From: Mucilaginibacter sp. CSA2-8R
Lineage (GTDB): Bacteria; Bacteroidota; Bacteroidia; Sphingobacteriales; Sphingobacteriaceae
Reading direction: 5' to 3'
Length of the DNA: 64,000 nt
Assembly (NCBI RefSeq): GCF_038806765.1
Contig: NZ_CP152389.1
Span: forward strand, 930,001-994,000
Shown: positions 10,223 to 28,240 of the stretch, in pieces
Layout: every line of letters starts with the position of its first letter
Numbering within the stretch: the first letter of the stretch is position 1
Notes under the pieces: generated by a model
Database searches by the model: none
What the model saw: only the letters and a program-made list of their open reading frames with translations
What the model was told of the DNA's origin: nothing
Translations under genes and position numbers: made by a program

Positions 10223-10226
10223 ATTA

Positions 10227-10581
10227 ATGGCGGTTGGTTTAATTATCGGGTTTATTGAATATATCTTATTTGAACCGGTAAAATTCAGCTCTTTATCCAA
10301 AGCTTATCGTCACAGTTCAGGTTATTACAATAGCGAAAATAACGTAACTCAAGTTTGGAAATCCTGTTATGGAACAGCAAGAGCCATTAGTTACATTACC
10401 GTTTTTTTTCAGGTAGCGTCGTGACTCTCCTGGCTACCTACTTAATTAAACGATACCTGTTTTTTTTGCCGGTCGGCGATGTGGAGATATTAGACACGGT
10501 GTACTCAACCACAATTTGACGGTCAATTTAGAAAATGCGTTAAAATTACTTGAACAACTTCTAATAGTTAATAAATATTGA
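10227..10581 (+). pseudogene. Possible remnant of a LanC-like lanthionine cyclase
   Basis: The frame 10227-10424 reads MAVGLIIGFIEYILF, then VTQVWKSCYGTARAISYI. LanC proteins have a G-L-x-H-G-x-P segment followed by a W-C-Y-G zinc-ligand motif and a short helix, in this order and at about this spacing. A second piece in another frame gives RHGVLNH near 10500, where LanC has C-H-G-x-x-G-x-x-H, and ends at 10581. The zinc-binding Cys-His is not intact. A class I dehydratase lies at 23071 but there is no intact LanC in the window. Weak evidence, based on motif order only. Confidence 0.35.
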
Positions 10582-10855
10582 CCTTTTGTAGCAATCATTC
10601 TAAGAAAATATTAAGATTTCTCATTATATCTGTGATTTATAAACACAATAATCACGCAATTAGTGATTTCGTCAAAGTAGAGCAGTGTTTGATGTAATCA
10701 ATTTTTCACCGCTTCAATAAAACTATATTTTAGAATATCAACAATTTGATTGATGAGGCAGTTATGAACATTTTTAATTCAATATAGTGTTCCTGGATAA
10801 CTCTCCCCAGGCAAATTTATGGAGGGAATCTTTAAACCATTACTTACTTTTTTTT
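10582..10855. promoter_or_regulatory. Leader region before the precursor gene
   Basis: AT-rich, no gene. It should hold the promoter of the set-2 operon. A TATATTTT string near 10722 fits seven of eight bases of the Bacteroidota -7 element (TAnnTTTG), but I see no well-placed -33 TTTG, so I do not assign a promoter. Confidence 0.35.
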
Positions 10856-11047
10856 ATGGAATTTTTCAATTTAAATTTCGATGAGCAGCCGTTAACAAGA
10901 GAAGACCTGTTGCGCATCAAAGGTGGTGTAAACCCTGCTTACACTGTATCAGGATGTACAGGTTGTTCAGACACTGCTTCAGGTCACTTATCGGATGACG
11001 GTGATTCGCTGACCGCTGACTGTACAGACGGCTGTACAAAAGACTAA
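10856..11047 (+). CDS. gwsA: RiPP precursor peptide with double-glycine leader (set 2)
   Basis: A 63-residue peptide. The leader MEFFNLNFDEQPLTREDL then LRIKGG ends in a GG cleavage site for the C39 exporter at 18063. The core of about 39 residues is rich in Thr, Ser, Asp and Cys, with two Cys clusters (GCTGC and CTDGCTKD) and an SDDGDS centre. Thr/Ser plus Asp suits ATP-grasp ester cross-links. The four Cys could be oxidised by the VKOR/thioredoxin fusion or join dehydrated residues if the dehydratase acts on it. The frame stays open back to a GTG at 10787, but ATG 10856 gives the usual leader length. A stem-loop separates it from the maturase genes. Confidence 0.85.
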   Translation: MEFFNLNFDEQPLTREDLLRIKGGVNPAYTVSGCTGCSDTASGHLSDDGDSLTADCTDGCTKD

Positions 11048-11054
11048 CCTTAAA

Positions 11055-11080
11055 AGCAGGAAAGGGAAACCTTTCCTGCT
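11055..11080 (+). promoter_or_regulatory. Intercistronic stem-loop after the precursor gene
   Basis: An 11-bp perfect stem AGCAGGAAAGG / CCTTTCCTGCT with a GAAA tetraloop, starting 8 bases after the precursor stop and ending 15 bases before the ATP-grasp start. No T-run follows, so it is more likely an mRNA-stabilising or partial attenuation element that lets the peptide be made in excess over its enzymes. Confidence 0.7.
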
Positions 11081-11095
11081 AAATTATGCTGCAGG

Positions 11096-12169
11096 ATGAT
11101 CCTTATTATTAGTCAGAGTTATATTGATGCCCCAACCGACTATGTTTATGATTGGTTGAAATGCCTTGGTGTGCCATGCCGTCGGTTAAATGGTGTTGAC
11201 CTAATTAAGAACTTAGGCTTTGGAATCAGGCTTGGTGGTGGTGCGGAGGATATGCAAATGCATTCCGGCAAAATCAACCTACAAGATATTAGTGCCGTCT
11301 GGATTAGACGGTGGATTACTCATTACGAATTTACAAAGGTGCGCTTTGAAAGTGAAGAAGAAGCACTTCTGGGTGATGTGATAGAGCGATCGAACAGCAG
11401 TCCATTAGAAGGTGATAAAGCCAGCTCAGTGCTTAAAGTATTAGCAGACGACATTAATGAGCACATTGATGGAGAATTTAGAGGGTTAAGCCACTACTTT
11501 TTTGAGTTTATCAAGGATAAACCAACCCTTGGTAATAGGTTTTACGCTGGAAAAGATCCTAGTAAAGCTCATCAGTTGTTAGTTGCCGCAAAAGTTGGCT
11601 TATCGGTTCCGGCTACATTGATTACAGATTCAAAAGTGGAATTGCAAGCCTTCAAGACTCAATATAAAGGCATTATTTGTAAAAATATCGCTGATATAGG
11701 TTTTTTTCATTTCATTTCATCGGCTGCAACTTACACACATCTGTTAACTGATAGTGATATTGAGGCACTCCCAGAAAGTTTCTTTCCAACGCTGTTTCAG
11801 CAATCGGTTGATAAGGAGTTCGAGATTAGGGCTTTCGTATTGGGAGAAGAAATTTACAGTATGGCGATTTTTTCATCAAAAGATGAAAGAACTGAGGTTG
11901 ATTTTCGTCGTTACAATCACCAGAATCCGAACAGAAATATTCCTTTCAAACTTCCAGCCGAGACAGAAATACAAATCAAAAATTTTATGAAATTAACTGG
12001 TTTGCAAACGGGATCGATCGATCTTATTTATTCAAAAACAGGCGAATTTGTTTTTTTGGAAGTCAATCCGGTTGGGCAATTTAGTATGGTGTCGACTCCA
12101 TGTAATTATAGGCTTGAAAAGAAAGTGGCTGAACATTTAATAAATCTATCTCAAAATGGGCGAAACTGA
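11096..12169 (+). CDS. gwsG: ATP-grasp peptide maturase, grasp-with-spasm type (set 2)
   Basis: Predicted ATP-dependent cross-linking enzyme for the precursor at 10856. The 357 residues carry DKEFEIRAFV, TGSIDLIY and FLEVNPVGQF, the ATP- and metal-binding motifs, and end PCNYRLEKKVAEHL like the set-1 copy (PCNYYLERKLA). It is about 29 residues longer than set 1, chiefly from a Ser-rich insertion near residues 96-118 (RSNSSPLEGDKASS). It overlaps the following small protein by 14 bases. Substrate choice and bond type (ester or amide) are inferred from the family and from the Thr/Asp-rich core. Confidence 0.88.
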   Translation: MILIISQSYIDAPTDYVYDWLKCLGVPCRRLNGVDLIKNLGFGIRLGGGAEDMQMHSGKINLQDISAVWIRRWITHYEFTKVRFESEEEALLGDVIERSNSSPLEGDKASSVLKVLADDINEHIDGEFRGLSHYFFEFIKDKPTLGNRFYAGKDPSKAHQLLVAAKVGLSVPATLITDSKVELQAFKTQYKGIICKNIADIGFFHFISSAATYTHLLTDSDIEALPESFFPTLFQQSVDKEFEIRAFVLGEEIYSMAIFSSKDERTEVDFRRYNHQNPNRNIPFKLPAETEIQIKNFMKLTGLQTGSIDLIYSKTGEFVFLEVNPVGQFSMVSTPCNYRLEKKVAEHLINLSQNGRN

Positions 12170-12371
12170 TCAAGAGATTTTGGGCGTTTTCATGCGCTCT
12201 TTATCGGATGAAAAAAAAAGGAACATCCCTTTAACCGCTTTGTATGTCAAAGACTTGTCGCCAGGATTAGTCAAGGTTGATAAAAGTAAGGAACACCACA
12301 CGGAAAAACTGCCTTGTTATTGGTTCTATAAGCCTGTCTCCCAACTTTACAAAACTTTTGAAAATGAGTAA
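12156..12371 (+). CDS. Small protein between ATP-grasp and SPASM genes (set 2)
   Basis: A 71-residue soluble protein of unknown function. It starts inside the end of the ATP-grasp gene and ends inside the start of the SPASM gene, so its place in the operon is tightly fixed. It is the positional counterpart of the 69-residue protein at 7504. The two align mainly at a C-terminal aromatic patch (PCYWFYKPVSQL). It has one Cys and many Lys, and no signal or GG motif. A leader-binding or maturase-bridging role is a guess from position. Confidence 0.6.
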   Translation: MGETDQEILGVFMRSLSDEKKRNIPLTALYVKDLSPGLVKVDKSKEHHTEKLPCYWFYKPVSQLYKTFENE

Positions 12372-13428
12372 AATGGTATTATGTGCCAATTGTTTTCCTG
12401 TTAAAGGATATACAAGAAGCATAATTTGCGATGTTATCAGATATAAATATGATTTCATCCCTAATTCAATGTATATATTTCTTAAGAACTATAACCGTAC
12501 CGACCTCGAAGTACTTAAAGCAACGCTAAGTCCAGATCAAAGAGTGATAGTAGAGTCTTACATTGATTTTTTACTCGATCGGGATTACATATTTTTTACC
12601 GACAACCCGGAATATTTTCCGGAAGTTGAGATTGCCTGGGACGAATCTTCAGTAGTCACTAACGCGATTGTTGATTTCGACGAACATTCTCAGCATTCTC
12701 TTAATAAGATTGTCTCAGAATTAAATCATCTTAGATGCAATGCGCTGGAAATTAGAACGTTTTTTCCGAAAAATGCAGCGGAAATTGAAGCAATCACACA
12801 ATCTCTCTCGGAGAGTAGTTTGAGAAGTGTACAATTTATTTTAGCATACCATGAGGAGTATACACGCTCTTACTTTCAGAACCTGATGAAAAAAAATCAG
12901 CGGTTAATGTCGGTAGTTATTCACTCCACACCAGATCCTGAATTGTTCAAGGAGAATCCTGAAAATTATAATATATTTTTTATCACCAACCCCATAGAGT
13001 CTGAAGCTCACTGCGGCGCTATTTCTAATTTTAACTTTGCATCGAATATTTCACTTTTTATGGAATCCCAGTTTTATAACAATTGTTTAAACAGGAAAAT
13101 TTCTATTGATAAACGTGGGTTCATAAAAAACTGTCCATCTATGCAAAATGATTTTGGGCATCACTTTGATGTAACTTTGTCAATGGCTTTGGATGTTCCG
13201 GAGTTCAAAGAATTATGGAGTGTGAAAAAGGATGATATTAATATTTGCAAAGATTGTGAATTCCGTTATATCTGTACCGACTGTCGGGCGTATACACAAT
13301 ATAATTCATCCCATCTGGGAAAGCCTTTAAAATGCAATTATGATCCCTATGCGGCTGTTTGGGAGACGGAAAAAAGCCCTTTTTCTACTGCTATGGCTAG
13401 CCCGGCAGACACAGCTATCAGCATTTGA
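12364..13428 (+). CDS. gwsS: SPASM-domain peptide maturase, grasp-with-spasm type (set 2)
   Basis: Partner of the set-2 ATP-grasp enzyme, 354 residues from ATG 12364. An upstream in-frame start (12277) exists, but 12364 matches the set-1 N-terminus and overlaps the small protein. SPASM cysteines are all present: CLNRKISIDKRGFIKNC, CKDCEFRYICTDC and LKCNYDP. No CX3CX2C radical-SAM motif is visible. The centre (SEAHCGAISNFNFASNIS) matches set 1 (DETHCGVISEFNFSVNIT). A 24-residue tail rich in Ala, Ser and Thr extends beyond the set-1 C-terminus. The next gene starts 5 bases downstream. Confidence 0.88.
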   Translation: MSKMVLCANCFPVKGYTRSIICDVIRYKYDFIPNSMYIFLKNYNRTDLEVLKATLSPDQRVIVESYIDFLLDRDYIFFTDNPEYFPEVEIAWDESSVVTNAIVDFDEHSQHSLNKIVSELNHLRCNALEIRTFFPKNAAEIEAITQSLSESSLRSVQFILAYHEEYTRSYFQNLMKKNQRLMSVVIHSTPDPELFKENPENYNIFFITNPIESEAHCGAISNFNFASNISLFMESQFYNNCLNRKISIDKRGFIKNCPSMQNDFGHHFDVTLSMALDVPEFKELWSVKKDDINICKDCEFRYICTDCRAYTQYNSSHLGKPLKCNYDPYAAVWETEKSPFSTAMASPADTAISI

Positions 13429-13433
13429 TGTAA

Positions 13434-15062
13434 ATGAAATTAAATCCGCTTGAATCGGCTAGAAAGGAGCAAAATTGTTTTGACATTGCTTGTGAGGTTA
13501 TCAAACTCTCACGTTTAAGAGTGTCAAAGACATCCCTTCTTTCATCCTTCCAAAAGCATCCTTATAACGGAACTTTATTAAGTCTTACTGATATATTCAA
13601 CTCATTTGGTATCAAGAGTAAAAGTGTATTGATAAAAAGTGAGAAGCTTTCACTTCTTCCAAACCCTTTTATAGCGGAAATACGCGGAGATGCTCAGTTA
13701 AATTATTTTTGTGTCGTTAAATCTATTGACAACGATAAGCTTGAATATTATGAGCCTATCAATAGACGGTGGCGCGTGACAGACTTGGTGACATTTGTAC
13801 AGCAATGGACCGGAGTCTGTTTGCTAATGGATCACAAAAATTATATACCCGAGAAAAGTTACATCAGCAACGCCGTTCATGAGACACTGGTGTTGATAAT
13901 AAGGTATCTGTCAATTTTCATCATTCCCGCCTACCTCATAGTTAGCTTTCTACAACTCGTAGCTAACTGGCAACAAAAAAGTATTATATCAGCCCTCTTT
14001 CTTCTGACATTTCTTGCCGGCAGCATCTTAACATCTTTGCTGCTTTCGGATGAGGTTCAAGGTGATGATTCTCTTTTGAAAAAGATTTGTAATCCTTCCG
14101 GTAAAGTCAACTGCCAAACAGTTGTCAAATCATCAGCCGGAAAAGTGTTTGGTTTTTCCTGGAGTATAATTGGATTTATTTATTTTTTTGGTGGGATGAT
14201 CAGCATATTATTGCTGGGCATAAACGACCAGCCTTTGCTGAAAAGTTTATTATTGCTTTCATGTTTAACGTTTCCTTTTATTTTTTATTCAATATATGTA
14301 CAGCTCTTTAGAATTAAGATGTGGTGTACAATGTGTCTTGGCATTGTTGCCTTGTTAATAGTACAGGCATGTTGTGCTTTACAATTTCATGACAGTATAT
14401 TTACGTGGGAGAATGTTTGGAACCCTCTAAGAGAATTACTGTTAATCTACATTGCCGTCGCTGCAATGGTCCATCTTCTTCTTACAAGGTTCAGATTAAG
14501 TAGGGATGAGCAAAACAGTAGTGTCAATTTAAATCGACTTAAATATAACGCTCATGTTTTTAATACTTTACTGCAACAACAGCCTAAAATAATTCCAGAT
14601 GAGATGTTGGGGGTTACTGTAGGAAAGAAAGATGCTAAGATAAAATTGGTCAAAGTTTGTAATCCATACTGTTCGCCTTGTATCCAGTCTCATGCTGTCG
14701 TGGAACGATTGATCACTGAAAATCCCAACGTTCAAGTTCAAATTATTTATAATATTCCCAACACACCAGATGACAATTCGGCTAATCTGATCAAGTTTTT
14801 TATGTCTGTTGGCCGCACCAGTGATGCAATAGTTGTCAGGGAAACACTATCTGACTGGTATTCTGGAGCAACCAGAAGTTATGTTGAGTTCATCGAAAAC
14901 CGGATTTTACCTGCCAGTTTAGATCAGTATGGCGTTGACTTAGATAAGATGGTCAATTGGTGTCAATCTATGAATGTTGGCGAGCAGTCTCCTATTTTCT
15001 TCGTAAACGGTGCCAAATTGCCTGACGTTTACACAATTGAAGATATGCTTTATATTTTGTGA
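13434..15062 (+). CDS. Fusion of C39-like domain, vitamin K epoxide reductase and thioredoxin
   Basis: A 542-residue membrane redox protein. Residues 1-140 resemble a C39 peptidase fold (NCFDIACEVIKLSRL, then LNYFCVVKSI, then YYEPINRRW), but the catalytic Cys-Gly-Pro context is not kept, so cleavage is doubtful. About 148-340 is a multi-helix VKOR domain with Cys in KVNCQTVV and the pair CTMC near 297. The C-terminal thioredoxin-like part has CNPYCSPC near 409 and the cis-Pro-type SPIFFVNG. The likely role is to pass electrons between quinone and thiols in the periplasm, forming or sorting disulfides in the exported Cys-rich peptide. It is cotranscribed with the maturases. Confidence 0.85.
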   Translation: MKLNPLESARKEQNCFDIACEVIKLSRLRVSKTSLLSSFQKHPYNGTLLSLTDIFNSFGIKSKSVLIKSEKLSLLPNPFIAEIRGDAQLNYFCVVKSIDNDKLEYYEPINRRWRVTDLVTFVQQWTGVCLLMDHKNYIPEKSYISNAVHETLVLIIRYLSIFIIPAYLIVSFLQLVANWQQKSIISALFLLTFLAGSILTSLLLSDEVQGDDSLLKKICNPSGKVNCQTVVKSSAGKVFGFSWSIIGFIYFFGGMISILLLGINDQPLLKSLLLLSCLTFPFIFYSIYVQLFRIKMWCTMCLGIVALLIVQACCALQFHDSIFTWENVWNPLRELLLIYIAVAAMVHLLLTRFRLSRDEQNSSVNLNRLKYNAHVFNTLLQQQPKIIPDEMLGVTVGKKDAKIKLVKVCNPYCSPCIQSHAVVERLITENPNVQVQIIYNIPNTPDDNSANLIKFFMSVGRTSDAIVVRETLSDWYSGATRSYVEFIENRILPASLDQYGVDLDKMVNWCQSMNVGEQSPIFFVNGAKLPDVYTIEDMLYIL

Positions 15063-15223
15063 CCAAGGTCTCTAATTAATATAGGTGCTCCAAATGCTAA
15101 TTCGTGTAAGTAAATCATAGCTTCACAGCAAATTCTTATCCTTTCGTGTAATGTTGGTTGTGGGCACTGTTTAGTTCTTATCGGTTGAATTAAATTAGCA
15201 AATGTTACTCCTCGTATACGTCT
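15063..15223 (+). other. Gap containing a possible radical-SAM motif remnant
   Basis: One frame gives ILILSCNVGCGHCLVLIG then a stop (about 15129-15187). CNVGCGHC is a CX3CX2C pattern like the iron-sulfur motif of radical-SAM enzymes. The stretch is too short and too close to stops to be a gene. It may be the stub of a deleted enzyme or chance. Confidence 0.25.
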
Positions 15224-18016
15224 ATGATAAAACAACTACAAATACTTTTATTGCTACTTATTTGCTACTCATCTGGCTTTAGCCAGAACTTCTCTCAGGA
15301 ATTGATTGTCAAAGCAGTCAATGTAAAGAACCAGGAGATTGTAGATAACAGATTAATCTCCGTTTCACTCTTAAATGTAAAAGATTCAACCTTCGTCCAG
15401 CAGCTTCGCTGGACTGAGCGAAGTAATGTTTCATTAAAGGGAATTAGGGACGGAAAATATATCCTTTTTTATCAGGCCGAAGGATTCATTCCCCGCTATG
15501 AAGATATTATGGTCCGAAACGGGCAGGTTGCTGAAGAACTTCATGTAATTAACTTTATTCCTAAGCAGATTTCACTCGGAGAGGTTGTTGTTAAAGGTGC
15601 TAGAACAAACATTGCTGTTAAAGGTGATACAACCGATTATAATGCACTCGGATATGTCACACAGGTTAACGATAATGTAGAAGCTCTTTTGAAGAAGCTT
15701 CCCGGTATAGATATAAGCAGAGATGGTAAAATTACCGTACAAGGTAAAACGGTCAATAAAGTTTTGGTAGATGGTAAAGAATTTTTTGGAAATGATCCGA
15801 AAGCTGCCATCAAAAATTTACCTGCAGATGCTATCGCAAAAGTACAGGTTATTGATGATAAGACCGATCGGACAAAGAATACAGGCATCGACGACGGACA
15901 ACGCGAAAAAGTCATCAACTTAAGCTTGAAAAATGATAAAAAGAACGGATGGTTTGGAAATATTGCAGCTCAACCAGGCACGGGTAGCCGTTATCTGGCG
16001 CAAGCTAATTTGAACAAATTCAATGAACGGTCTCAGTTATCTGTTATTTCCTTAAGTAATAATATCAATGAAACGGGATTTTCACTTGAAGATTTGAACA
16101 ATTTTACAAACGGGAGTACTTATAGTTTCTTTGGATCTGGGAATGGCACATTAAATTTCAGTGTAAGCAATTCAGGCAGGGTTAACGTTAATAATGCTTT
16201 CTCAGGTCTTGACGGAGGTCTTGTGAAAAGCCATAATGGTGGTATAAATTTTTCTGCTCAATACGGCAAAAGAAAGCAATTGAAATTTAATATCAGCGTC
16301 ATGGGACTATTAAGTTCGAATGATATCACGCAGAAAACCGAAATCAACGATATTCCTAATAATTTATTAACCAGCCAGCTCAACCAAGGCTCAAATTCCA
16401 ACGACCTCTATCGGATTAATTTAAATTTTGATTATACAATAGATACATTGACTTCGTTTCGGTTCAAGCCATTTTTTACCAATGGACAAAAAAGAAGCAA
16501 CAGTGTTTTACTTTCGACAACAACTCGGGAGGATCTGAGTTTCGTCAATAACATCAGGCAATTTCTGGAGCAAGCAAGTACTAGCCCTAGTGTCGGCGGC
16601 CAGATCGGTATCAACAAGAAATTAAGGTATGGTCAAGGGTCGATCAACTTCTTTACCTATGGCAGCTATTCCGACAATAAACTTAATTATACCAATGATT
16701 TACTAATCAACGCTGTATCTGCGAGCAACCCAACGGGCGGTAATGTTCAACAACAGACCAGCCAAGGGAATAATGGTGGATTCTTTACAAGTACGCTGTC
16801 CTACATCAAACCATTGAGTAAAAAACGGAAGGTTAACCTCACCTTGAGCCAGATAGTAGATTTTCGTAAGGAAACGGCAAGTCAATACACCCTAGACTAT
16901 AATCCGCTCAATGGTAATTACGAAATTTACAATGCAAATTTTAGTGGGAATATCACCAGTACCAACTACCGATATACGACCACTGCTGGAATAAATAAGG
17001 TTTCTGACGAAGTTACATTAAATGCCAATTTAGCTGTCGCTAGACTAGGCTTACGGGGTGAGATTCAAAACTCTGTCAGTGAGGGTGTTGACAGGGAGAT
17101 TTGGGCCTTTGTTCCAAACATCAGCGGCCTTTTCCGTCCAAAGAAAGGTACCAGTCTATACATAGCATTAAAAGCAGATGTTCAAATGCCGTCGGCAGCA
17201 GATTTGCAGCCGATTCTCAATAATTCTAATCCACTTTACATACGGTCAGGGAATCCGTCCCTTCAGGCCTCACGTTCGTTGAATGCCAATTTTAATTACA
17301 ATACATTTAATTCGGCAACAAACACCTTGTTAACTATCAACGGGCTCTACACACAATATTGGCGGGGATTTTCGACTTCAAGCAGCGTTGATACAAATGG
17401 TATAGCCAGGACATTCCCTATTAACGTTACGGGCAATTATCTTGTCAGTGGTGGTATTAATCTTGGCTTGTCCCCCAAAATTAATGGCCTGAAAATTAAC
17501 GCCGGCGTGTCTTCTAATTACAGTCACACGGTTAATTTAATCAACGACCAAATCAATGATTTGTCAAGGATTTCCGGCAGTATCATCATGGGGATCAATT
17601 ATGATAACAAATATTATCAGCTGGGAGTCCGTCTGGCCCCAACTTTTAATAATGCTAAAAATTCTTATACAAAACTGGCAGATCAGCGGTACTTATCTTT
17701 TGATAATAGCTTAAATGTTAGTTTGAATATATCTAAAAACTTCAGGTTGTTTTCCGAGGTTGCTCAAAATTTATACCGTGGCCAGCCTGGTGGTAGCGAC
17801 ATTACATATTATCTCTGGAATGCAGGACTTGAGCAATATTTATTGCATAAACGCAACCTTACAATTGGGTTGAACGCTTACGACCTGCTTGGGCAAAACG
17901 CCGCTGTTACCAGGTTCATTACCAGTACTGGTCAGATTCAAAATACTCAGACTAACACCCTTAGCCGTTATATTTACTTGAAGGTAATTTATAAAATTTC
18001 CAAGGTCGGCAAATGA
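15224..18016 (+). CDS. Outer-membrane beta-barrel protein with TonB-receptor-like plug
   Basis: A 930-residue outer-membrane protein. Signal peptide MIKQLQILLLLLICYSSGFS, a carboxypeptidase-regulatory-like beta-sandwich (about 22-110), then a plug-like region (SLGEVVVKGARTNIAVKGDT, LPGIDISRDGK, KVLVDGKEFFGNDPKAAI). A long C-terminal barrel follows, rich in alternating aromatic strands, ending VIYKISKVGK. It belongs to the OMP_b-brl_3 / TonB-dependent type found beside peptide exporters in this phylum. In this operon it could be the outer-membrane exit or a receptor for the product; nothing in the sequence decides between them. Confidence 0.85.
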   Translation: MIKQLQILLLLLICYSSGFSQNFSQELIVKAVNVKNQEIVDNRLISVSLLNVKDSTFVQQLRWTERSNVSLKGIRDGKYILFYQAEGFIPRYEDIMVRNGQVAEELHVINFIPKQISLGEVVVKGARTNIAVKGDTTDYNALGYVTQVNDNVEALLKKLPGIDISRDGKITVQGKTVNKVLVDGKEFFGNDPKAAIKNLPADAIAKVQVIDDKTDRTKNTGIDDGQREKVINLSLKNDKKNGWFGNIAAQPGTGSRYLAQANLNKFNERSQLSVISLSNNINETGFSLEDLNNFTNGSTYSFFGSGNGTLNFSVSNSGRVNVNNAFSGLDGGLVKSHNGGINFSAQYGKRKQLKFNISVMGLLSSNDITQKTEINDIPNNLLTSQLNQGSNSNDLYRINLNFDYTIDTLTSFRFKPFFTNGQKRSNSVLLSTTTREDLSFVNNIRQFLEQASTSPSVGGQIGINKKLRYGQGSINFFTYGSYSDNKLNYTNDLLINAVSASNPTGGNVQQQTSQGNNGGFFTSTLSYIKPLSKKRKVNLTLSQIVDFRKETASQYTLDYNPLNGNYEIYNANFSGNITSTNYRYTTTAGINKVSDEVTLNANLAVARLGLRGEIQNSVSEGVDREIWAFVPNISGLFRPKKGTSLYIALKADVQMPSAADLQPILNNSNPLYIRSGNPSLQASRSLNANFNYNTFNSATNTLLTINGLYTQYWRGFSTSSSVDTNGIARTFPINVTGNYLVSGGINLGLSPKINGLKINAGVSSNYSHTVNLINDQINDLSRISGSIIMGINYDNKYYQLGVRLAPTFNNAKNSYTKLADQRYLSFDNSLNVSLNISKNFRLFSEVAQNLYRGQPGGSDITYYLWNAGLEQYLLHKRNLTIGLNAYDLLGQNAAVTRFITSTGQIQNTQTNTLSRYIYLKVIYKISKVGK

Positions 18017-18062
18017 TCGATATGCTGATTTAGCTTGATGCAATCAAATTTAATTTAATGAA

Positions 18063-20237
18063 ATGAAGAAATTTCCATTTTTCAAACAGCTTGATATCAT
18101 GGATTGCGGACCAACCTGTATCAAAATTGTAGCTAAATTCTACGGCAAAAACTTTTCGATCCAAAAGCTCCGCGGGCTTACTCAAATCAATCGAGATGGG
18201 GTATCTTTATTTGGTATCAGCGATGCTGCAGAGCAACTCGGTTTCAGAACGAGAGCTGTAAAAAGAACAGTTGAACAAATAAAAGAAGTGAATTTTCCCT
18301 CAATTCTTTATTGGAAACAGAATCATTTTGTTGTTATTTTCGAGGTAAAGGACGATAAATACCTGGTTGCAGATCCTGCAAGAGGAATCATTACGTACTC
18401 CAAACAGGAGTTTTCACGTAACTGGCTTGGAGATGAACAATTTGGTATAGTTCTGATGCTGTTACCGACTCCATCATTTCATGTCCAAGATGATGACAAG
18501 GCGACCGGTATAAAATGGTCGTTCTTGTGGCGATATCTTCTTACTTACAAAAGTTTAATTATACAGTTAGTATTTGGCCTGTGTATCGGCAGCTTGCTGC
18601 AGTTGCTGACACCATACTTAACGCAGTCAATTGTGGATGTAGGAATCAGTACCGCCAATATCAGTTTCATTTATATCATTTTACTTGCACAAGTCGTGCT
18701 AGTCATCGGTCGTGTTAGTGTGGACTTCATCCGTTCGTGGATTCTTCTTCATATAAGCACTCGAATTAATGTATCGATTTTAACAGATTTCCTTATCAAG
18801 CTGATGAAACTTCCAATCAGTTTTTTCGACACTAAGCTTACCGGCGACATCATGCAGCGAATGACTGATCAGAGAAAGATAGAGAACTTTCTAACGGGCT
18901 CTGCCTTGAGCACGGTCTTCTCGCTCTTTAATTTACTAATATTTTCTATTGCATTGATTTCTTACAATCTCACAATATTTTTTGTGTTTGCAATTTTTAG
19001 TTCCGTCTATATGGCTTGGATTGGCATCTTTATGAAACGGAGGCGAGAGTTGAATTTTAAAAGTTTTGATATTTCTGCAAGAAACCAAAGCAGTATAATG
19101 CAGCTTATAAATGGAATGCAGGAAATTAAGCTAAACAACTGTGAGAAGCAAAAACGATGGGAATGGGAACATATTCAGGCACAGTATTTTAGATATAATG
19201 TGAAAAGCCTGTCTTTAAGCCAGTATCAACAGGGGGGGGCCGCTTTTATAAATGAAAGCAAAAATTTAATAATCACATTTTTAAGTGCAAAAGCGGTAAT
19301 TTATGGTGATCTTACGTTGGGGGCAATGGTTGCTGTACAGTATATCATTGGACAGCTTAACAGTCCCATCGAGCATTTACTGAGCTTTCTTCAAGGATTT
19401 CAAGATGCAAAAATAAGTATGGAAAGGTTAAACGAGATTCATCAGTTAAAAGATGAAGAATCACTTGAATTGGAGGTGAATCACTTTTTGCCGGATAATA
19501 AGTCAATTACATTTTCGGATCTAACGTTCAAATACCCGGGAGCGGGAAATTTGAATGTTTTAAAAAATATTAGTTTTTCGGTACCTGAAGGAAAAACTAC
19601 GGCAATTGTTGGGATGAGTGGCAGTGGCAAAACAACGATTTTGAAACTATTGCTTCGTTTTTATATGCCTGAATCCGGATCTATCAAAGTAGGCGGGCTA
19701 GATCTGGCTAATATAAGTTATAAGTCCTGGCGGAATAGCTGCGGTACTGTGATGCAGGAAGGATTCATTTTTTCTGACACTATTGAAAAAAACATTGCTG
19801 TGGGGGACGATTATCCAGACCGGGCAAAATTGAATCATGCTATCAGAATTGCGAATATACAGGATTATATAAGCTCTCTTCCATTAGGTCTGAAAACTAA
19901 AATTGGTGTTGAGGCGAACGGAATAAGTCAAGGACAACGTCAGCGTATTTTAATTGCCCGAGCTGTATACAAAGATCCGGCATACATTTTTTTTGATGAG
20001 GCCACTAATGCTTTAGATGCGAACAATGAAAGAGTGATAATGGATAACCTTAAAGAGTTTTTTGTTAACAGAACGGTCATTGTCGTGGCTCACAGGCTTA
20101 GTACAGTAAGTGGTGCGGACAACATAATAGTTCTGGATAAAGGCGAAATTATTGAACAGGGAGATCATGCAAGCCTGACGGCAATGCAGGGAGCCTATTT
20201 CCACCTGGTAAAAAACCAACTTGAGTTAGGAAATTAA
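18063..20237 (+). CDS. C39-peptidase-containing ABC transporter (RiPP exporter, set 2)
   Basis: Exporter and leader protease for the set-2 precursor. C39 domain with Cys in IMDCGPTC (residue 14), His in KQNHFVVI and Asp in VADPARG. A hydrophobic membrane domain (about 160-445) follows, then a nucleotide-binding domain with Walker A GMSGSGKTT (about 517), SQGQRQR and Walker B IFFDEATN. It is 724 residues, with the same layout and much identical sequence to the exporter at 2239. The adaptor gene begins one base after its stop. It starts 46 bases after the outer-membrane gene, within the same operon. Confidence 0.93.
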   Translation: MKKFPFFKQLDIMDCGPTCIKIVAKFYGKNFSIQKLRGLTQINRDGVSLFGISDAAEQLGFRTRAVKRTVEQIKEVNFPSILYWKQNHFVVIFEVKDDKYLVADPARGIITYSKQEFSRNWLGDEQFGIVLMLLPTPSFHVQDDDKATGIKWSFLWRYLLTYKSLIIQLVFGLCIGSLLQLLTPYLTQSIVDVGISTANISFIYIILLAQVVLVIGRVSVDFIRSWILLHISTRINVSILTDFLIKLMKLPISFFDTKLTGDIMQRMTDQRKIENFLTGSALSTVFSLFNLLIFSIALISYNLTIFFVFAIFSSVYMAWIGIFMKRRRELNFKSFDISARNQSSIMQLINGMQEIKLNNCEKQKRWEWEHIQAQYFRYNVKSLSLSQYQQGGAAFINESKNLIITFLSAKAVIYGDLTLGAMVAVQYIIGQLNSPIEHLLSFLQGFQDAKISMERLNEIHQLKDEESLELEVNHFLPDNKSITFSDLTFKYPGAGNLNVLKNISFSVPEGKTTAIVGMSGSGKTTILKLLLRFYMPESGSIKVGGLDLANISYKSWRNSCGTVMQEGFIFSDTIEKNIAVGDDYPDRAKLNHAIRIANIQDYISSLPLGLKTKIGVEANGISQGQRQRILIARAVYKDPAYIFFDEATNALDANNERVIMDNLKEFFVNRTVIVVAHRLSTVSGADNIIVLDKGEIIEQGDHASLTAMQGAYFHLVKNQLELGN

Positions 20238-20238
20238 G

Positions 20239-21027
20239 ATGTTTAAAAAAAAGAATGAGGTCCCTGCCGATCAATTGCATTCGGAGGACATGGACGATAT
20301 AATCAATGCAGTTCCGTCCTGGGTCGTACGTTGGGGAATAACGATTTTTTTCGTGCAGCTTTTATTGATCTTCTTATTAGCAGGTTTTGTTGAATACCCT
20401 GACTTACAGCGTATGGCGCTTAAAATTACTGCGCTCAGTCAACCGGTGACCTTAAATGCTCAGCAATCAGGAATAATTACCTGCATTATGGTTAGGAACC
20501 ATGAAACGGTCCGTAAAGGACAACCCTTAGCCGTTCTACAGCAACATGCTGATTCAGGCAAGATCAATAACTACAAAGGTTCTGCGCAAGGAACTTTTAA
20601 ACTCATGATGGATACACTTTATGCGCCCCGGAATGGAATGGTAAGCTACGCCAAACCAATGAGGGTAGGGCAGGAGTTATTCCGGGGACAGTCAGCATTG
20701 TATATAGGTGCCAATACACAGAGGTATGTCGGCGAAATGTCAGTTCCTGTAAATTCTCCAAACATCAAGCTTAATCAAACAGTGATCGTTAAACTCAATG
20801 GATACCCCTACCAAGAGTATGGTGCTATAAAGGGTAAAATTACTTATATTTCAGATGTTACAACAGAAGATAATACGTTACTGTGTGAAGTGACCTTAGA
20901 GCTGACCAAGCTATCTCCATTAGTACACTTAAGAGCAGGTATGACAGCAAATGCAGAAATTATAACACGGCAAACGACACTATTAAGGAGATTAAGTAAT
21001 GGTTTTGTGCAGAATCAGCTAAAATGA
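20239..21027 (+). CDS. HlyD-family membrane-fusion adaptor (set 2)
   Basis: A 262-residue adaptor for the exporter just upstream. Cytoplasmic start, one membrane helix near residues 34-52 (ITIFFVQLLLIFLLAGFVEY), then a lipoyl-like segment (GIITCIMVRNHETVRKGQPL) and a C-terminal beta domain (LRAGMTANAEI). It lacks the long coiled-coil hairpin of classical HlyD. Its TGA overlaps the start of the regulator gene (ATGA). It is shorter than the set-1 adaptor at 4433 but has the same order of parts. Confidence 0.82.
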   Translation: MFKKKNEVPADQLHSEDMDDIINAVPSWVVRWGITIFFVQLLLIFLLAGFVEYPDLQRMALKITALSQPVTLNAQQSGIITCIMVRNHETVRKGQPLAVLQQHADSGKINNYKGSAQGTFKLMMDTLYAPRNGMVSYAKPMRVGQELFRGQSALYIGANTQRYVGEMSVPVNSPNIKLNQTVIVKLNGYPYQEYGAIKGKITYISDVTTEDNTLLCEVTLELTKLSPLVHLRAGMTANAEIITRQTTLLRRLSNGFVQNQLK

Positions 21028-21746
21028 ATAAACTCACCTGTTACGTTCTTGACGATGAGCTACATTCTTTAGAGACTTTAGCTGGATATATCACTCAAAC
21101 CCCCGAGGTAACACTTATTGGTCAATCTACAGATCCAAAATGTGCTTTAGCCGCTTTTAATGCAGGAGACGTGCCTGATATACTATTTACAGACATTGAT
21201 ATGCCTGACTTAACCGGATTGGAAGTCTCGGCGTTGTTGGGAAAGAGGTGTCTTGTCATTTTTGTAACAGCCTACAACAATTTCGCCGCAGAAGCTTACG
21301 ATAGTGAGGCTTTTGCTTATCTTTTGAAGCCGGTTTCGTATGCTAAATTTCTAGGAACGATTCGCCGAGCAATCGAACAGAAGGTAACTGTAGCCAAGCA
21401 TGAAGAATTTCTTTTCGTAAGAGGAGAGAACAAGAGCAAAACGTTTAGGGTAGATTTGAAGGATATTGTATATTTCGAAAGTGCAACAAATTATGTTATT
21501 GTATCTACCGTTCGCGAAAACATTACAACCTATGTAATGATCAAAGAGTTAGCGGATCATATTCCAGAAAAAGATTTTTCCAGGATTCACAGATCGTTTA
21601 TCATCAATCATAATCACATACATTATATTCATGGCAACGAGGTAGTGATGACTAACGGCTCACATTTACCTTTAAGCAGTTCCTACAAAGAAAGTTTTCT
21701 AGATAAAATTAACAAGAGAACATTGATCTCCAAAAGACTGCTCTGA
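21024..21746 (+). CDS. LytTR-family response regulator (last gene of the set-2 operon)
   Basis: A 240-residue DNA-binding regulator. The receiver domain (1-120) has the acidic pair LDDE, phospho-acceptor Asp in FTDIDMPDLTG (about 57), Thr in FVTAYNN and Lys in LLKPVSY. The LytTR domain (about 133-235) has the usual VYFESATNYVIV and FSRIHRSFIINHNHI strands. Start overlaps the adaptor stop. No kinase gene adjoins it; a LytS-type kinase lies 5 kb away at 26843. Being in the biosynthetic operon suggests self-regulation by the product or by that kinase. Confidence 0.88.
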   Translation: MNKLTCYVLDDELHSLETLAGYITQTPEVTLIGQSTDPKCALAAFNAGDVPDILFTDIDMPDLTGLEVSALLGKRCLVIFVTAYNNFAAEAYDSEAFAYLLKPVSYAKFLGTIRRAIEQKVTVAKHEEFLFVRGENKSKTFRVDLKDIVYFESATNYVIVSTVRENITTYVMIKELADHIPEKDFSRIHRSFIINHNHIHYIHGNEVVMTNGSHLPLSSSYKESFLDKINKRTLISKRLL

Positions 21747-21761
21747 AATTTAAAACTCAAT

Positions 21762-22430
21762 TTAGTGAAAGTCAGATAAATCAAGAACCTCATAATTAAT
21801 GTCGAGCAATTTTGCATTTTCTTCCACAGTGTTTTTGAAACCTGCTTTCTTTCTCCGTAAATTGACTTTTTGCGGATTGGCTATAGGCCAAATAAACCAG
21901 TCGTTTTTTCCTGTCCGCTTAAGTTGCCTGAATGCGGCCTGCGTGCCGTAAATTTGTTTTTGGTGTTTGTTTACAAGATATCTGTCCTGCATAGTAGCGT
22001 AAAGAAAAAATGGGAGATCATTTTTATGCGCCGCTTTGGCGACAACATCAATGTACTTATCAATCTTTGGAGAGTGTTGTATTACGTTCCATGCAACTTC
22101 ATTGGTAGGGGTGCCCACTAATTTCTTACCAGGGTAACCATATTGGTCAATTACCTTTTCAACAAAGAGCAAGTTAGCAGAATCAATTGATTTTTGTTTG
22201 TTCCATAGTAAGTCATCGATTTCCTCAGCGGTCGATTGGAATTTAGCAGCTATTTTTATTTTTTTAGCTGTGTTTGACAGGTCAGAAAGATATCCGCGAT
22301 ATTTTTGATCCAATGACATAATGCTGTCCAATTGACGTCTCAGATACTTCTTATTAACCGATTGAGCCTGTAACTTTGAGCTGACTGATATGGAGAACAT
22401 CATAAAGATGATTTTGAAAAATTTTAACAT
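21762..22430 (-). CDS. Secreted DUF6624-type protein
   Basis: A 222-residue protein with a signal peptide (MLKFFKIIFMMFSISVSSKLQA) and a soluble domain. DQYGYPGKKLVG, AWNVIQHS, LYATMQDRYLVNKHQ and QIYGTQ are in the order seen in DUF6624 proteins. The molecular function of that family is not known to me. It ends 15 bases from the end of the regulator gene on the other strand, so it is convergent with the RiPP operon. No link to peptide maturation is visible. Confidence 0.7.
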   Translation of the reverse strand: MLKFFKIIFMMFSISVSSKLQAQSVNKKYLRRQLDSIMSLDQKYRGYLSDLSNTAKKIKIAAKFQSTAEEIDDLLWNKQKSIDSANLLFVEKVIDQYGYPGKKLVGTPTNEVAWNVIQHSPKIDKYIDVVAKAAHKNDLPFFLYATMQDRYLVNKHQKQIYGTQAAFRQLKRTGKNDWFIWPIANPQKVNLRRKKAGFKNTVEENAKLLDINYEVLDLSDFH

Positions 22431-23070
22431 ATAAATTTTCGAAATGAATTGAGTTCACAAAAAGGTTGGCTTGAGTTTCGACTATAGGAAATCAACAACT
22501 CTGACAATATAACAAGTAAGGGTTCAACTCCAAGCCTCTTTTGAAGAATGACATCTTTTGTAGTCAACGTGGAAAGTATGCATGAGATTTTACCACGTTT
22601 CCGTCTAGTCTACTGTTAGAGTACACCGCCGAAAAATTAGCTTGTTCATTGCAAATAAGGCCCTTATTTCCATAAGAATTAACTAAACCTAAGATATGAT
22701 TTATTTAATGCAGATAAAGCATAGTTACATCAATTACTGAAAAAATTACACCATTGGCAAAAATTGGTTAACTAAATAGAAGGATTAAGGGTAACAGATC
22801 AGCATATGGATTGACCAGACAGCATTAATCGTTTAGTGAAATTCGCTCCATTGTGAAATTTCAGCAACGCGTCGGTCACGAAAGGTAAAGCACTTATGTC
22901 GATTAAATGTGATTTGGTGTAATAAAGAGTCTAATTAATCCGGTGCTCACTAATTTCAGATTAGAAATAATAAATGAGTATTTAAAAGTTCACTTGCAGC
23001 CGGATCGAACCTTCAATAATGGTTTTGAAGGTAAGTAATCTTTAGAAGCAAAACCCGTAATCCTAATCAC
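22431..23070. other. 640-base gap between DUF6624 gene and dehydratase gene
   Basis: It must hold the divergent promoters of both genes. I looked for a lanthipeptide precursor on both strands and found no frame with a leader and Ser/Thr/Cys-rich core. No strong hairpin seen. Confidence 0.5.
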
Positions 23071-26000
23071 ATGTTTACATTTCTACCTGACATTATTTTA
23101 AGATCGCCGTTACAAAGTTCTAATGATTTTAAACCGAATAATCTACAACAACAGCTTACTGACCCGTTTTTTAAATTAGCATTATATCTTGCGAGTAGTT
23201 CCTTTTATCAACTTTTAGAGGCAAAAAACTTTGATCTTCAATTGTTGACTGAAAAAGAACAATTAACCTTGCTGAAGTACTTCAATCGAATATGTTTTCG
23301 ATGCACACCCTTCGGCTTTTTTTCGTCCGTGAGTATTTTAAAATGGAATAGAACTCAGAGTGAAGTTCAACTGAGCGCGAGATCAGAAGTTAACCTTTTT
23401 ATATTGCCGGACCAGCAAATTAATTTATATCGCAAAGGGTTCAACCAACCCGGCCCGGATGATAAAATTGTTTTGAATCCATCGCTTTACAAAACTATAG
23501 ACGGATATCGCCTTATTCAAACTGTAGTTTTGAAGGAAGGTCGTGTTTTATACCAGCTCTTTGATATTGAACAAGATATTATTCTGAAGAAAGTCATCGA
23601 TCACTTAAGTACCGTTCAATTAATACCATTAGAGAGATTGTCAGGTTTTATTATCAGTCAAACACTTTGTTCAGTCGTTGAGTCTGATCACTATATAAAA
23701 AACTTGTTTGAAATCCAGGTTATTCAACGTCCCATGGACTATTCATTGTATTGTCAGCCAGGTGAGCTCCCCTTGTTACGTGGTATTTGTTTAAATTTAT
23801 ATTCTGCTTTTGTCAGCGCAAACAAAACACCGAATTTTCAGCGATTGCAGGAATTGCAGCTACTCTCTCTGAAAATTAAGCGTTGTTTAGAAAAAAAAAG
23901 TGGATATATCCCTCCGGAATTTTATTACACAGTGTCGACTAGAGCAAGCTCAGGCGGCCTTAATTTAAAACATCAAACTCAATTAAAAGAGGCACTATCA
24001 GTAATGATGCGCCTTTCTGTTAGGATCAATCCAACGGAACTTAGTTGTTTCACAAAAAAGTTCAAGGCAAGATACGATCGCCAGATTGTTCCCTTGCTAC
24101 AGGTACTGGATCCTGAAATGGGTTTGGGTTATGGAACATCCTCAGCTACAGGTGCCTTTGGAGAGATGCTGACCGATTTGCCATTAAAAGATTTCCAAAA
24201 TGAAACTGATATGCCATTCCATCAGCATAAAGCGAAGCAAATGTTTTTGAAAAAGTGGACTTCACCCCAGTTTGATGGCAAAGCAATCAAAATCAGTCAA
24301 GACGATTTGCTTCAATTAGAACTACCTGAAGAATCCGCTTTGCCTTTTTCAACACAGGTCATGTTCTCTTTTAGGGGAGATTCGTTGCTGATTGAGTCTG
24401 CGGGAGGGGCCTTCGCAGGAGGAATCATAGGGCGCTTTACTTTATTGGATACAGAGATAAACTCATTAGCTCACACGATTGCCATAAAAGAAGAAGAAGC
24501 TCATCCCGAGATGATTTTTGCAGAAGTCAATCATCTTCTAGATGCCAAGACAGACAATATCAACTGCCGAAGATTGAACTACAAATATATCATCAATACA
24601 GTAAGTGCCTCAAATTTTGGAAATAGTTTGCCGCTTAGTGATCTATATGTTACCTCTTGTAATAATGAAATTGTGCTCTATTCCAAAAGTTTACAAAAAC
24701 GGGTAATTCCAAGATTTAGCTCAGCCTATAACTACCATAAAAATGATTTAGGGATATTTAAATTTCTTTGTGACCTCCAATATCAAAATTTTCATAGTGA
24801 CCTCAAAATAAATCTTCCTGCCTTGTTTCCCGGACTTGAGTACTATCCGCGTGTTACGTATCATCAAACAATTCTGAGCGAAGCCCAATGGTATCTTTCT
24901 GAAGCAGAAATCTTTCAATTATCTTCAGGCGGGGGTGGTGGGGATCGTCGTTTAAAGCATTTGATTGAAAACCGTCAATTTTCTCGCTATATAGCGTTGA
25001 CTGAAGGAGACCAGCAACTGGTTATTGATTTACAAGACGAGCGACATAAATTGTTTTTTTTAAAGTGTCTTGAGAAGCAGAAAGCTGGTTGTTGGATCAA
25101 AGAATATGATTTAAATCAATCTGACCTAATCCGATGTGATCAACAGGCTTTTGCTGGTCAATTTATTGCTTTTCTTGTCTCTGACGTTCGTCGCTTTAAG
25201 ATCGTGCCTTTCAACGACTCCATTAACCGATCTTTAATACAACGCAATTTCGGACCCGGAAGCGAGTGGCTTTATTTAAAAATTAAAGTGTCCTCTAGTT
25301 ATGCTGATTCGTTGTTAAAAAAAGTGTATACCAAAATTCTCCGAAACACCAATCATGGTGTAAGAGTCTGGTACTTTGTGAGGTATGATGAAGGTGGCAG
25401 TCACCTCCGCCTACGAATCAATTTGGCGCAGGAACGTTTAGGGGACATCATGCAAGCATTTCAAAAAGTCTTGAAACGCGATATTGATCATCATCTTGTT
25501 GAAGCCATTCAATTAGATACTTATTCTCGTGAAATCGAAAGATATGGTTCAGATATAATCGAAAATGTGGAAAAATGGTTTCATTCAAGCAGCGAGTTTC
25601 AGATCGCTTTCAGTAAGATCTCACAGCAGAATAAAGCATTTCATTTGTGCGCATTCATTCCAATGCTTATGGCTGATTACTTAATCAGCCAATTCCTTCC
25701 ATCCAATTCTGAGCAGTTTGCGTTTGTCAAAGAAGTGATGACTAGCCTGTTAGGAGAGAATACAGAAAAAAAGTCATTGAAAGTTGCGCTTGATCAGAAA
25801 TTTCGTGTCATGGCCAAAGATTTTCACTATGTCATAGATAATTCTGCGAATCTATGTCGCGACCTTAAAATTTCTTCCCACGTCAGGCGCCTGCGTTTGC
25901 ATACGTCATCTTTATTGATTCAGGTAAGTCATGTTAAGAAAATTCGACGATATCAGCTCCTGGCAGATTTAGTGCATATGCATTTAAACAGAATGTTCAT

Positions 26001-26091
26001 ACACCGGCAAAGGCATCATGAGTTGGTTACCTATTATTTTTTATACAAAAAGAAGTTGTCTGAGAAAGCTCTATCTAATCAATGCTTATAA
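23071..26091 (+). CDS. lanB: Class I lantibiotic dehydratase (LanB)
   Basis: A 1006-residue enzyme that would use glutamyl-tRNA to dehydrate Ser/Thr of a precursor. N-terminal dehydratase part with CFRCTPFGFFSSVS near residue 80, FYYTVSTRASSGGL, TSSATGAFGEM and RFSSAYNYHKND. The C-terminal elimination domain begins near 727 (FGPGSEWLYLKIKV). It includes VWYFVRYDEGGSHLRLRI and YSREIERYGSD, and ends LADLVHMHLNRMFIHRQRHHELV. Both activities are therefore in one chain, as in classical LanB. The length is normal. No intact cyclase or certain precursor lies beside it. Its substrate may be the Cys/Thr-rich peptide at 10856 or an unlinked one. Confidence 0.92.
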   Translation: MFTFLPDIILRSPLQSSNDFKPNNLQQQLTDPFFKLALYLASSSFYQLLEAKNFDLQLLTEKEQLTLLKYFNRICFRCTPFGFFSSVSILKWNRTQSEVQLSARSEVNLFILPDQQINLYRKGFNQPGPDDKIVLNPSLYKTIDGYRLIQTVVLKEGRVLYQLFDIEQDIILKKVIDHLSTVQLIPLERLSGFIISQTLCSVVESDHYIKNLFEIQVIQRPMDYSLYCQPGELPLLRGICLNLYSAFVSANKTPNFQRLQELQLLSLKIKRCLEKKSGYIPPEFYYTVSTRASSGGLNLKHQTQLKEALSVMMRLSVRINPTELSCFTKKFKARYDRQIVPLLQVLDPEMGLGYGTSSATGAFGEMLTDLPLKDFQNETDMPFHQHKAKQMFLKKWTSPQFDGKAIKISQDDLLQLELPEESALPFSTQVMFSFRGDSLLIESAGGAFAGGIIGRFTLLDTEINSLAHTIAIKEEEAHPEMIFAEVNHLLDAKTDNINCRRLNYKYIINTVSASNFGNSLPLSDLYVTSCNNEIVLYSKSLQKRVIPRFSSAYNYHKNDLGIFKFLCDLQYQNFHSDLKINLPALFPGLEYYPRVTYHQTILSEAQWYLSEAEIFQLSSGGGGGDRRLKHLIENRQFSRYIALTEGDQQLVIDLQDERHKLFFLKCLEKQKAGCWIKEYDLNQSDLIRCDQQAFAGQFIAFLVSDVRRFKIVPFNDSINRSLIQRNFGPGSEWLYLKIKVSSSYADSLLKKVYTKILRNTNHGVRVWYFVRYDEGGSHLRLRINLAQERLGDIMQAFQKVLKRDIDHHLVEAIQLDTYSREIERYGSDIIENVEKWFHSSSEFQIAFSKISQQNKAFHLCAFIPMLMADYLISQFLPSNSEQFAFVKEVMTSLLGENTEKKSLKVALDQKFRVMAKDFHYVIDNSANLCRDLKISSHVRRLRLHTSSLLIQVSHVKKIRRYQLLADLVHMHLNRMFIHRQRHHELVTYYFLYKKKLSEKALSNQCL

Positions 26092-26105
26092 CATTTTGCG
26101 CTTAT

Positions 26106-26837
26106 TTATTTTCGATTGGTTTTGACGGTAAATGAAGTAATGATATCCATAAATTCGTTTTTGAAGCTTGCGCCTAACGGAAGGATGATGTGTTCCGCCA
26201 ACTTAACCATATTCCCTTCCACAGATCTTATCTTACGAAGATTGACGATATATGATTTATGAACACGCGCAAATTTGGTATAAGTAAGAGCTGCCATCAT
26301 TTCATTCATCGTTAAATAGGTAATATACTTGCCGCCTCCTGTTGTAAAGATTGTAATGTAGTTTTTCAGCCCTTCGACATAGATAATGTCGTCAACGTGA
26401 AGTTGTAATACTTTTCCGCGTACTCCCGGGTTTATGAAAATAAAGTCATTGGGCGACTCGGTTTGTATGGGGACCGGAAACCCAATCATTCCGGTTACCT
26501 TATCTATGGACTTGAGAAATCTTGCGAAGGATATTGGCTTAAGCAGATAATCTGCAGCGTTGACACCAAAAGCATCTAAGGCATAATTCGGAAAGGCCGT
26601 TATAAAAACTTTGAATAGTTTAGGTGGCAGCAAGTCTGCTAATTCAATCCCGGATAATTCAGGCATATCTATATCGAGAAAGACCAAGTCTGTTCTTTGG
26701 GCATCTTTTAGTTCTCGCAAAGCCGTGAGTGGTTCAGATGTATATCCGGCTAATTCAAGATGCGGGACTTTGTTAATATAGTTAACCAGCGTGTCTATCG
26801 CATGGGTTTCATCATCAATTATAAAGCACTTAATCAT
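26106..26837 (-). CDS. LytTR-family response regulator, partner of the adjacent LytS-type kinase
   Basis: A 243-residue regulator. Receiver domain with IIDDE near the start, phospho-acceptor Asp in FLDIDMPELSG (about 56), Thr in FITAFPN and Lys in LLKPISF. The LytTR DNA-binding domain (about 140-235) has IIYVEGLKNYITI and FARVHKSYIVNLRKI. It lies 5 bases after the kinase gene, so they form a two-gene operon. It ends 14 bases from the convergent dehydratase gene, which makes the RiPP genes its probable but unproven targets. Confidence 0.9.
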   Translation of the reverse strand: MIKCFIIDDETHAIDTLVNYINKVPHLELAGYTSEPLTALRELKDAQRTDLVFLDIDMPELSGIELADLLPPKLFKVFITAFPNYALDAFGVNAADYLLKPISFARFLKSIDKVTGMIGFPVPIQTESPNDFIFINPGVRGKVLQLHVDDIIYVEGLKNYITIFTTGGGKYITYLTMNEMMAALTYTKFARVHKSYIVNLRKIRSVEGNMVKLAEHIILPLGASFKNEFMDIITSFTVKTNRK

Positions 26838-26842
26838 TTTAT

Positions 26843-28187: not shown

Positions 28188-28240
28188 CCCTCCCTTAATT
28201 CGGACTGGTATTTTATAGACTTATTAATTCAAAAATATAA

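Follow-up and report, generated by a model that had tools for sequence, protein, structure and literature searches.

The window analysed here is a stretch of 64,000 nucleotides from the genome of Mucilaginibacter sp. CSA2-8R (positions 930,001 to 994,000 of NZ_CP152389.1), in which a graspetide operon of the grasp-with-spasm kind (10856–21746) is adjoined by a class I dehydratase (LanB) gene with neighbours of its own (23071–28187). LanB is full-length, has both a glutamylation and an elimination domain (PF04738, PF14028, TIGR03891) and is encoded on the forward strand at 23071–26091, where an earlier sequence-only reading had placed it. That reading also had LanB adjoining the operon; the two are indeed adjacent, but LanB lies outside the run of genes, which stops at 21746, because an opposite-strand DUF6624 gene (21762–22430, PF20329) and 640 bases without a convincing gene intervene. 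The end of LanB is separated by 14 bases from a convergent LytTR response regulator gene (26106–26837, reverse strand), next to which lies a histidine kinase gene (26843–27922, reverse strand, PF06580). Divergent from the kinase, an unannotated frame (28044–28187, forward strand) encodes the predicted LanB substrate, a peptide of 47 residues with a basic N-terminal part, a Thr-rich tail (SETDPTVITTMTVTHILIL) and no Cys, and a direct-repeat element with 9-N13-9 spacing is located 5' of it (27956–27987, forward strand). Promoter and terminator scans of 20900–28400 gave values near the shuffled level.

The source genome, a single contig of 5.34 Mb, has three LanBs, all of them convergent with LytTR and histidine kinase genes. 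At E<=0.001 the genome showed no match to the LanC family PF05147, and of the Bacteroidota lanthipeptide leaders NF038153 had no match and NF038158 two below the cut-off (E 1.3 and 5.6). Full-length LanBs without LanC were common in the family to which the source genome belongs. To describe this arrangement, 61 LanB loci were annotated (50 hand-picked from the matches listed, ten further loci and the window). LytTR and kinase genes were convergent within 3.5 kb in 42 of the 47 LanBs without LanC (within 5 kb) vs 2 of the 14 with LanC; the LanC profile used for this split was built from one sequence, so that divergent LanCs may escape it, and one locus counted as LanC-less (L115) has weak LanC matches nearby. 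Four regions were opened from 38 plasmid records bearing a LanB relative: the LanB/LytTR/kinase order was present in all three Hymenobacter plasmid regions, one of them with LanC past the kinase, and in the Spirosoma region LytTR and kinase were 5' of LanB on the same strand. LanB very probably belongs to a conserved LanB/LytTR/kinase/Thr-peptide cassette that stands apart from the grasp operon.

Nine of the LanC-less LanBs (L013–L016, L134, L138, L147, L150, L152) adjoin TlpA, SusC and SusD genes, and near them lies a divergent gene pair that we take to be MauE-like and DUF6520-like. Frames of 164–252 residues 5' of LanB in L013–L016 were discarded as genes, being antisense to the MauE-like and DUF6520-like genes.

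To delineate the peptide family, the 2505 small open frames that surround the 47 LanC-less LanBs were compared all against all; one cluster, with 22 loci, dominated, and a second group of five, related to it, contained the window. An iterated profile seeded from LanC-less LanB loci matched, at E<1e-3, in 31/47 LanC-less loci and 2/14 LanC-type loci; eight of the 16 LanC-less loci without a match showed, by eye, a similar Thr-rich frame in the same place. Among grasp loci it matched in 3 of 92 (two from the same genome), each time beside a kinase–LytTR pair. Hymenobacter plasmids have look-alikes of the peptide at the equivalent place, with scores below significance. Tandem arrays of three to six similar Thr-rich peptides between kinase and LytTR were seen in L155–L159.

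A profile of 35 aligned members was then searched against 201 genomes of the family. The peptide was present in 52/82 LanB-positive and 0/119 LanB-negative genomes (Fisher 4e-27) and, when 29 training genomes were dropped, in 23/53 vs 0/119 (Fisher 3e-14). Within the source genome the profile matched only at the three LanB loci, all three being training rows; class-wide, 6 of 395 genomes had the peptide, all from the family of the source genome, with at most 17 candidates scored per genome. Among the 144 matches listed, 101 had a LanB no more than 7 kb away and 43 did not; outside the 35 training rows the matches listed comprised 68 near LanB, many as tandem copies, and 41 far. Twenty of these 41 far peptides were fetched, and every one had kinase and LytTR genes within 2.5 kb, with no LanB match in the fetched stretches of 8.5–9 kb. 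Counted from the dehydratase, the peptide was found within 7 kb of 61 of the 131 typed LanB main matches.

A pN/pS of 0.16, taken as a sum across 25 close pairs that have members in common, supports the peptide family as coding and subject to purifying selection. After the DPT motif the residues are 25% Thr, 9% Ser and 0.6% Cys; Cys occurs there in 4 of 47 family peptides and is absent from the window peptide. When the 35 members were scanned, Pfam and NCBIfam returned only single-member matches with E>0.01 and no family model, and neither NF038153 nor NF038158 appeared in the list of families obtained with the peptide alignment.

An integrase-core (IS3-like) transposase starts 54 bases past the peptide gene. 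Next in 28241–63901 come an integrase of phage type and then homologues of TraG, TraJ and TraM in a conjugative element; the GC content is 42–49% in this mobile stretch and 35–40% in 1–28000. A second LanB cassette (L005) lies beyond the mobile stretch.

The neighbouring operon had been described, from the letters alone, as a mostly coupled run from precursor to regulator with a graspetide-type maturation system, double-glycine (GG) export and a Cys-containing core. Open reading frame and family checks found the named genes in that order, all on the forward strand, and matches to TIGR04192, TIGR04193 and C39, together with the precursor, bear this description out. The precursor (10856–11047) has a GG leader and a core with two Cys pairs (..CTGC..DCTDGC..). 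It is followed after 48 bases by an ATP-grasp peptide maturase of the gwsG type (11096–12169; TIGR04192, 245.4 bits vs a curated cut-off of 230), by a small protein (12156–12371) placed by its position immediately 5' of the SPASM gene and without a family match, and by the grasp-with-spasm SPASM protein (12364–13428; TIGR04193, 326.5 bits vs a cut-off of 175), these three genes overlapping. Five bases further on, a fusion of degenerate C39, VKOR and thioredoxin-like domains is encoded (13434–15062), matching Peptidase_C39, VKOR and, weakly and under the cut-off, thioredoxin; the label "C39-like" given to it is right, since on reading its sequence the C39 domain lacks the usual His. After 161 bases, the widest junction of the run (the others overlap or measure 1–48 bases), comes an outer-membrane beta-barrel protein (15224–18016, PF14905), then after 46 bases a C39 peptidase ABC exporter (18063–20237), after one base an HlyD-type adaptor (20239–21027, matches below curated cut-offs) and, overlapping it, a LytTR response regulator as the last gene (21024–21746). 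The operon 10856–21746 is an intact, well-equipped member of the known grasp-with-spasm kind. In the accessible part of PMC8939145 the place occupied by the small protein is that of the LPL family, and according to the available text of PMC13097080 DUF6624 occurs often in several of the graspetide groups.

A second, shorter grasp-with-spasm set is present in the window (ATP-grasp 6504–7490, small protein 7504–7713, SPASM protein 7710–8717), with a C39 exporter (2239–4440), an HlyD gene (4433–5422) and a GG precursor (about 5–163) nearby. An Rfam scan of the window gave no match at gathering level.

Relatives of the operon were examined in named SPASM loci, the 80 best among 509 stretches that had been confirmed; all counts are lower bounds because contig ends cut many loci. 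Profiles matched an ATP-grasp gene in 79 of the 80 and a C39 exporter in 46; HlyD was matched in 37, DUF6624 in 33, LytTR in 13, the C39/VKOR fusion in seven and LanB, within 10 kb, in one. A Chitinophagaceae metagenome-assembled genome (L042) has the same order as the window (ATP-grasp, SPASM, fusion, exporter, HlyD, DUF6624) and three precursors with ..CTDC[SG]D.. cores, close to the ..CTGCSD.. of the window. At least two core Cys were counted in 5/6 fusion-bearing loci vs 20/53 others (one-sided p 0.03; weak, from hand-typed counts), a weak hint that the fusion may make disulfides. Loci of this kind are treated as branch 5 in the accessible part of PMC8939145, where the SPASM protein is called a radical SAM enzyme.

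The SPASM protein was studied in two overlapping alignments of 17 and 46 members. The SPASM-type cysteines are conserved in both, some being absent in two of the 17 (L010 and L027), and the CxxxCxxC motif occurs nowhere in any of the 17 or the 46 sequences. In an AlphaFold model from the 46 sequences (mean pLDDT 88.7, pTM 0.83), residues 1–89 adopt the winged-helix fold of RiPP recognition elements (RREs), fitting PbtF with Z 9.4 and rmsd 2.2 over 78 residues, with further matches to TbiB1, TruD and MccB. Residues about 91–333 resemble radical SAM/SPASM maturases (SuiB, Z 11.8, rmsd 5.8, 215 aligned; PqqE, Z 11.7, rmsd 5.8, 189 aligned); Foldseek by itself returned only SuiB at E<=0.001, in two matches with low TM-scores. 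The protein is likely a leader-binding partner rather than a radical enzyme, because its predicted radical-SAM-like barrel is without the catalytic cysteines, and it may serve the ATP-grasp enzyme. For the half of grasp-with-spasm systems that lacks an explanation, the prediction offers a concrete hypothesis, a partner that holds the leader.

Upstream of the peptides, 43 regions have in common a direct-repeat element of 32 bases (15.9 bits), in a model started from the window's own sequence; the same procedure on 40 shuffled sets gave 7.4 bits (sd 0.5, max 8.3). Its 9-N13-9 spacing is, we assume, like that of LytTR sites. When the window was left out of the model, its scan scored 14.6 at 10666, 13.4 at 22891 and 12.8 at 27956; in that scan six sites without such a role equalled or exceeded the score of the one 5' of LanB, and the peptide's own element ranked ninth. 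The first two are candidate copies 5' of the graspetide precursor (10666–10697, forward strand) and of LanB (22891–22922, forward strand), for each of which the evidence is weak and local. Control of LanBs in general by this element was rejected: 4/47 LanC-less LanBs exceeded the 95% control level (binomial p 0.21) and, with controls at 4/25 for TlpA/SusC (p 0.03) and 0/14 for LanC-type LanBs, there is no general signal. Upstream of grasp operons the element was found in one of five linked to a cassette (the window itself), none of nine unlinked and 3 of 70 named loci. Site 10666 is thus only a hint, since most other grasp operons are without the element, and regulation of the graspetide operon by the cassette is put forward only as a hypothesis.

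Two separate peptide systems adjoin, in our judgement with a probability of about 0.78: a graspetide operon, and a LanB/LytTR/kinase/Thr-peptide cassette making a dehydrated signal. For the chemistry, the sensing and the control of the graspetide operon we infer the following. In the first system (10856–21746, with the DUF6624 gene) ATP-grasp would link core side chains by ester or amide bonds, the SPASM protein would probably hold the leader through its RRE domain, the VKOR/thioredoxin fusion would probably oxidise the core Cys pairs and the C39 exporter would cut the precursor at GG. In the second (23071–28187) LanB would dehydrate Thr and Ser of the 28044 peptide, its most likely substrate given the synteny, the co-occurrence and the lack of a LanC match in the genome. 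The product would be ring-free and rich in dehydrobutyrine, with no thioethers, because the peptide has no Cys and the genome showed no LanC. Most probably it would serve as a signal to the kinase encoded next to it, and LytTR would act at the promoter of the peptide gene. A wider extension is tentative and rather doubtful as a whole, namely that these are a new family of ring-free, LanB-dehydrated Bacteroidota signals, each with its own kinase–LytTR pair, that a single LanB serves many such pairs in trans, and that the circuit in the window activates the graspetide operon.

Several points weigh against this interpretation. The dehydration chemistry is deduced from sequence, peptides far from LanB need LanB to act in trans, which is assumed, and no exporter or protease for the peptide was seen in the cassette. 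At E<1e-3 the profile missed 16 of the 47 LanC-less loci, half of which have no clear peptide by eye either, and 30 LanB-positive genomes had no peptide match. Both Fisher values ignore kinship, and related genomes inflate the co-occurrence. The element 5' of LanB is not recurrent (4/47). Finally, four genomes have grasp and LanB genes no more than 15 kb apart, whereas uniform placement expects 0.26.

The best-placed alternative, an unlikely one, is an autoinducing bacteriocin, in which the LanB peptide would be a dehydrated antimicrobial sensed by its own kinase and LytTR. Nisin autoinduces through NisRK; the gene roles of the cassette (dehydratase, two-component system) are those of class I lantibiotics, and the conserved element 5' of the peptide is consistent with autoinduction. 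However, besides the lack of a LanC match in the genome, no exporter, protease or immunity gene was seen in the cassette, and the peptide–kinase–LytTR sets that several genomes have away from LanB fit signalling better.

Less probable still is that LanB leaves the peptide untouched and acts on some other substrate, the peptide then being a small protein that regulates the kinase or one with no relation to it. The 20/20 far peptides beside kinase and LytTR, without LanB in the fetched stretch, would suit such a role. Against it, none of the LanB-negative genomes had a peptide match (0/119), and its Thr-rich, Cys-poor tail suits a dehydratase substrate.

The sequence-only reading had raised the idea of a hybrid product, in which LanB would dehydrate Ser and Thr of the 10856 precursor, so that one peptide would carry ester or amide links, dehydroamino acids and disulfides together. 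Co-location offers this idea some ground: among 20 same-family genomes with TIGR04193 above the cut-off, four have grasp and LanB genes within 15 kb (the window, G067, G044 and G152), and the excess over uniform placement persists when the source genome is left out (P 1.5e-3 for three or more). Either RiPP genes cluster or some link exists, since co-location exceeds uniform placement, and an indirect link between grasp and LanB genes is possible. The relative L010 has on one strand, at 4145–16771, ATP-grasp (146 residues), SPASM, LanC, LanB, exporter and HlyD genes, possibly a lanthipeptide takeover of a graspetide cluster. A Hymenobacter canadensis plasmid (L198, NZ_CP114769.1) has gwsG, LanC and LanB within about 15 kb; it carries grasp-with-spasm genes, nine tandem precursors annotated as ComC/BlpC-like and, 5–10 kb from the grasp genes, LanC, kinase, LytTR and LanB. 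The available text of PMC13097080 mentions that graspetide clusters contain lanthipeptide dehydratases, at low frequency.

The co-locations are mostly neighbouring modules, because the LanBs of G044 and G152 again keep their own kinase and LytTR and that of G067 has LanC and a separate lanthipeptide-like precursor, beside an ATP-grasp frame of only 146 residues. L010 has two different precursors upstream and a shortened ATP-grasp frame. Outside the family, nine of the 26 genomes with TIGR04193 above the cut-off have LanB and none is listed with it on the same contig within 15 kb, although contig breaks could hide some cases; the single LanB within 10 kb among the 80 named loci is likewise subject to contig ends. 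With LanB found far more often beside LytTR and kinase than beside grasp genes, and with its own conserved peptide (28044–28187) and regulators, close to the outcome that had been named as speaking against a hybrid, action of LanB on the graspetide core is very improbable.

The LanB/LytTR/kinase/Thr-peptide cassette is widely conserved and apparently undescribed: no description was found among the open-licence papers listed on lanthipeptides, graspetides, LytTR and peptide pheromones, nor was a paper found on grasp-with-spasm under that name or on C39 plus VKOR with bacteriocins. One Clostridium study (PMC10301443) reportedly ties a lanthipeptide-synthetase-like protein to Agr quorum sensing. 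LanBs away from LanC are noted for Spirosoma linguale and Microscilla marina in the accessible part of PMC3091789. The mining in PMC7268733, as far as its available text goes, set out from LanC-like domains, with precursors lacking Cys excluded in one described case, and a survey started from LanC would therefore miss LanC-less LanBs. Two-component quorum sensing is covered by PMC8895600, in the accessible part of which the cassette is not mentioned. The conserved peptide partner gives LanC-less LanBs a testable substrate.

With grasp-with-spasm graspetides (branch 5 of PMC8939145 and the SPASM-linked group 14 of PMC13097080, from the accessible parts of both) the window operon has in common the ATP-grasp, small and SPASM proteins, and also the C39 exporter, HlyD, outer-membrane barrel, DUF6624 and a Cys-bearing GG precursor. 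Unlike typical systems of this kind it has the C39-like/VKOR/thioredoxin fusion and a terminal LytTR gene, and unlike the radical SAM label its SPASM protein is predicted to combine an RRE with a radical-SAM-like barrel devoid of the catalytic Cys motif. The cassette shares with class I lanthipeptides (nisin type, pinensin and other Bacteroidota LanBC clusters) the full-length two-domain LanB and two-component regulation; it differs in having no LanC match in the genome, no NF038153/NF038158 leader, a Cys-free peptide divergent from the kinase and a regulator of the LytTR type. ComCDE, Blp and Agr are LytTR peptide-pheromone systems. As in these, a small peptide stands beside kinase and LytTR, both in the window and in all 20 far loci fetched, and a direct-repeat element precedes it; unlike in these, no exporter is seen in the cassette, the host belongs to the Bacteroidota and the peptide is predicted to be dehydrated by LanB, which suggests peptide communication using dehydroamino acids in place of thioether rings.

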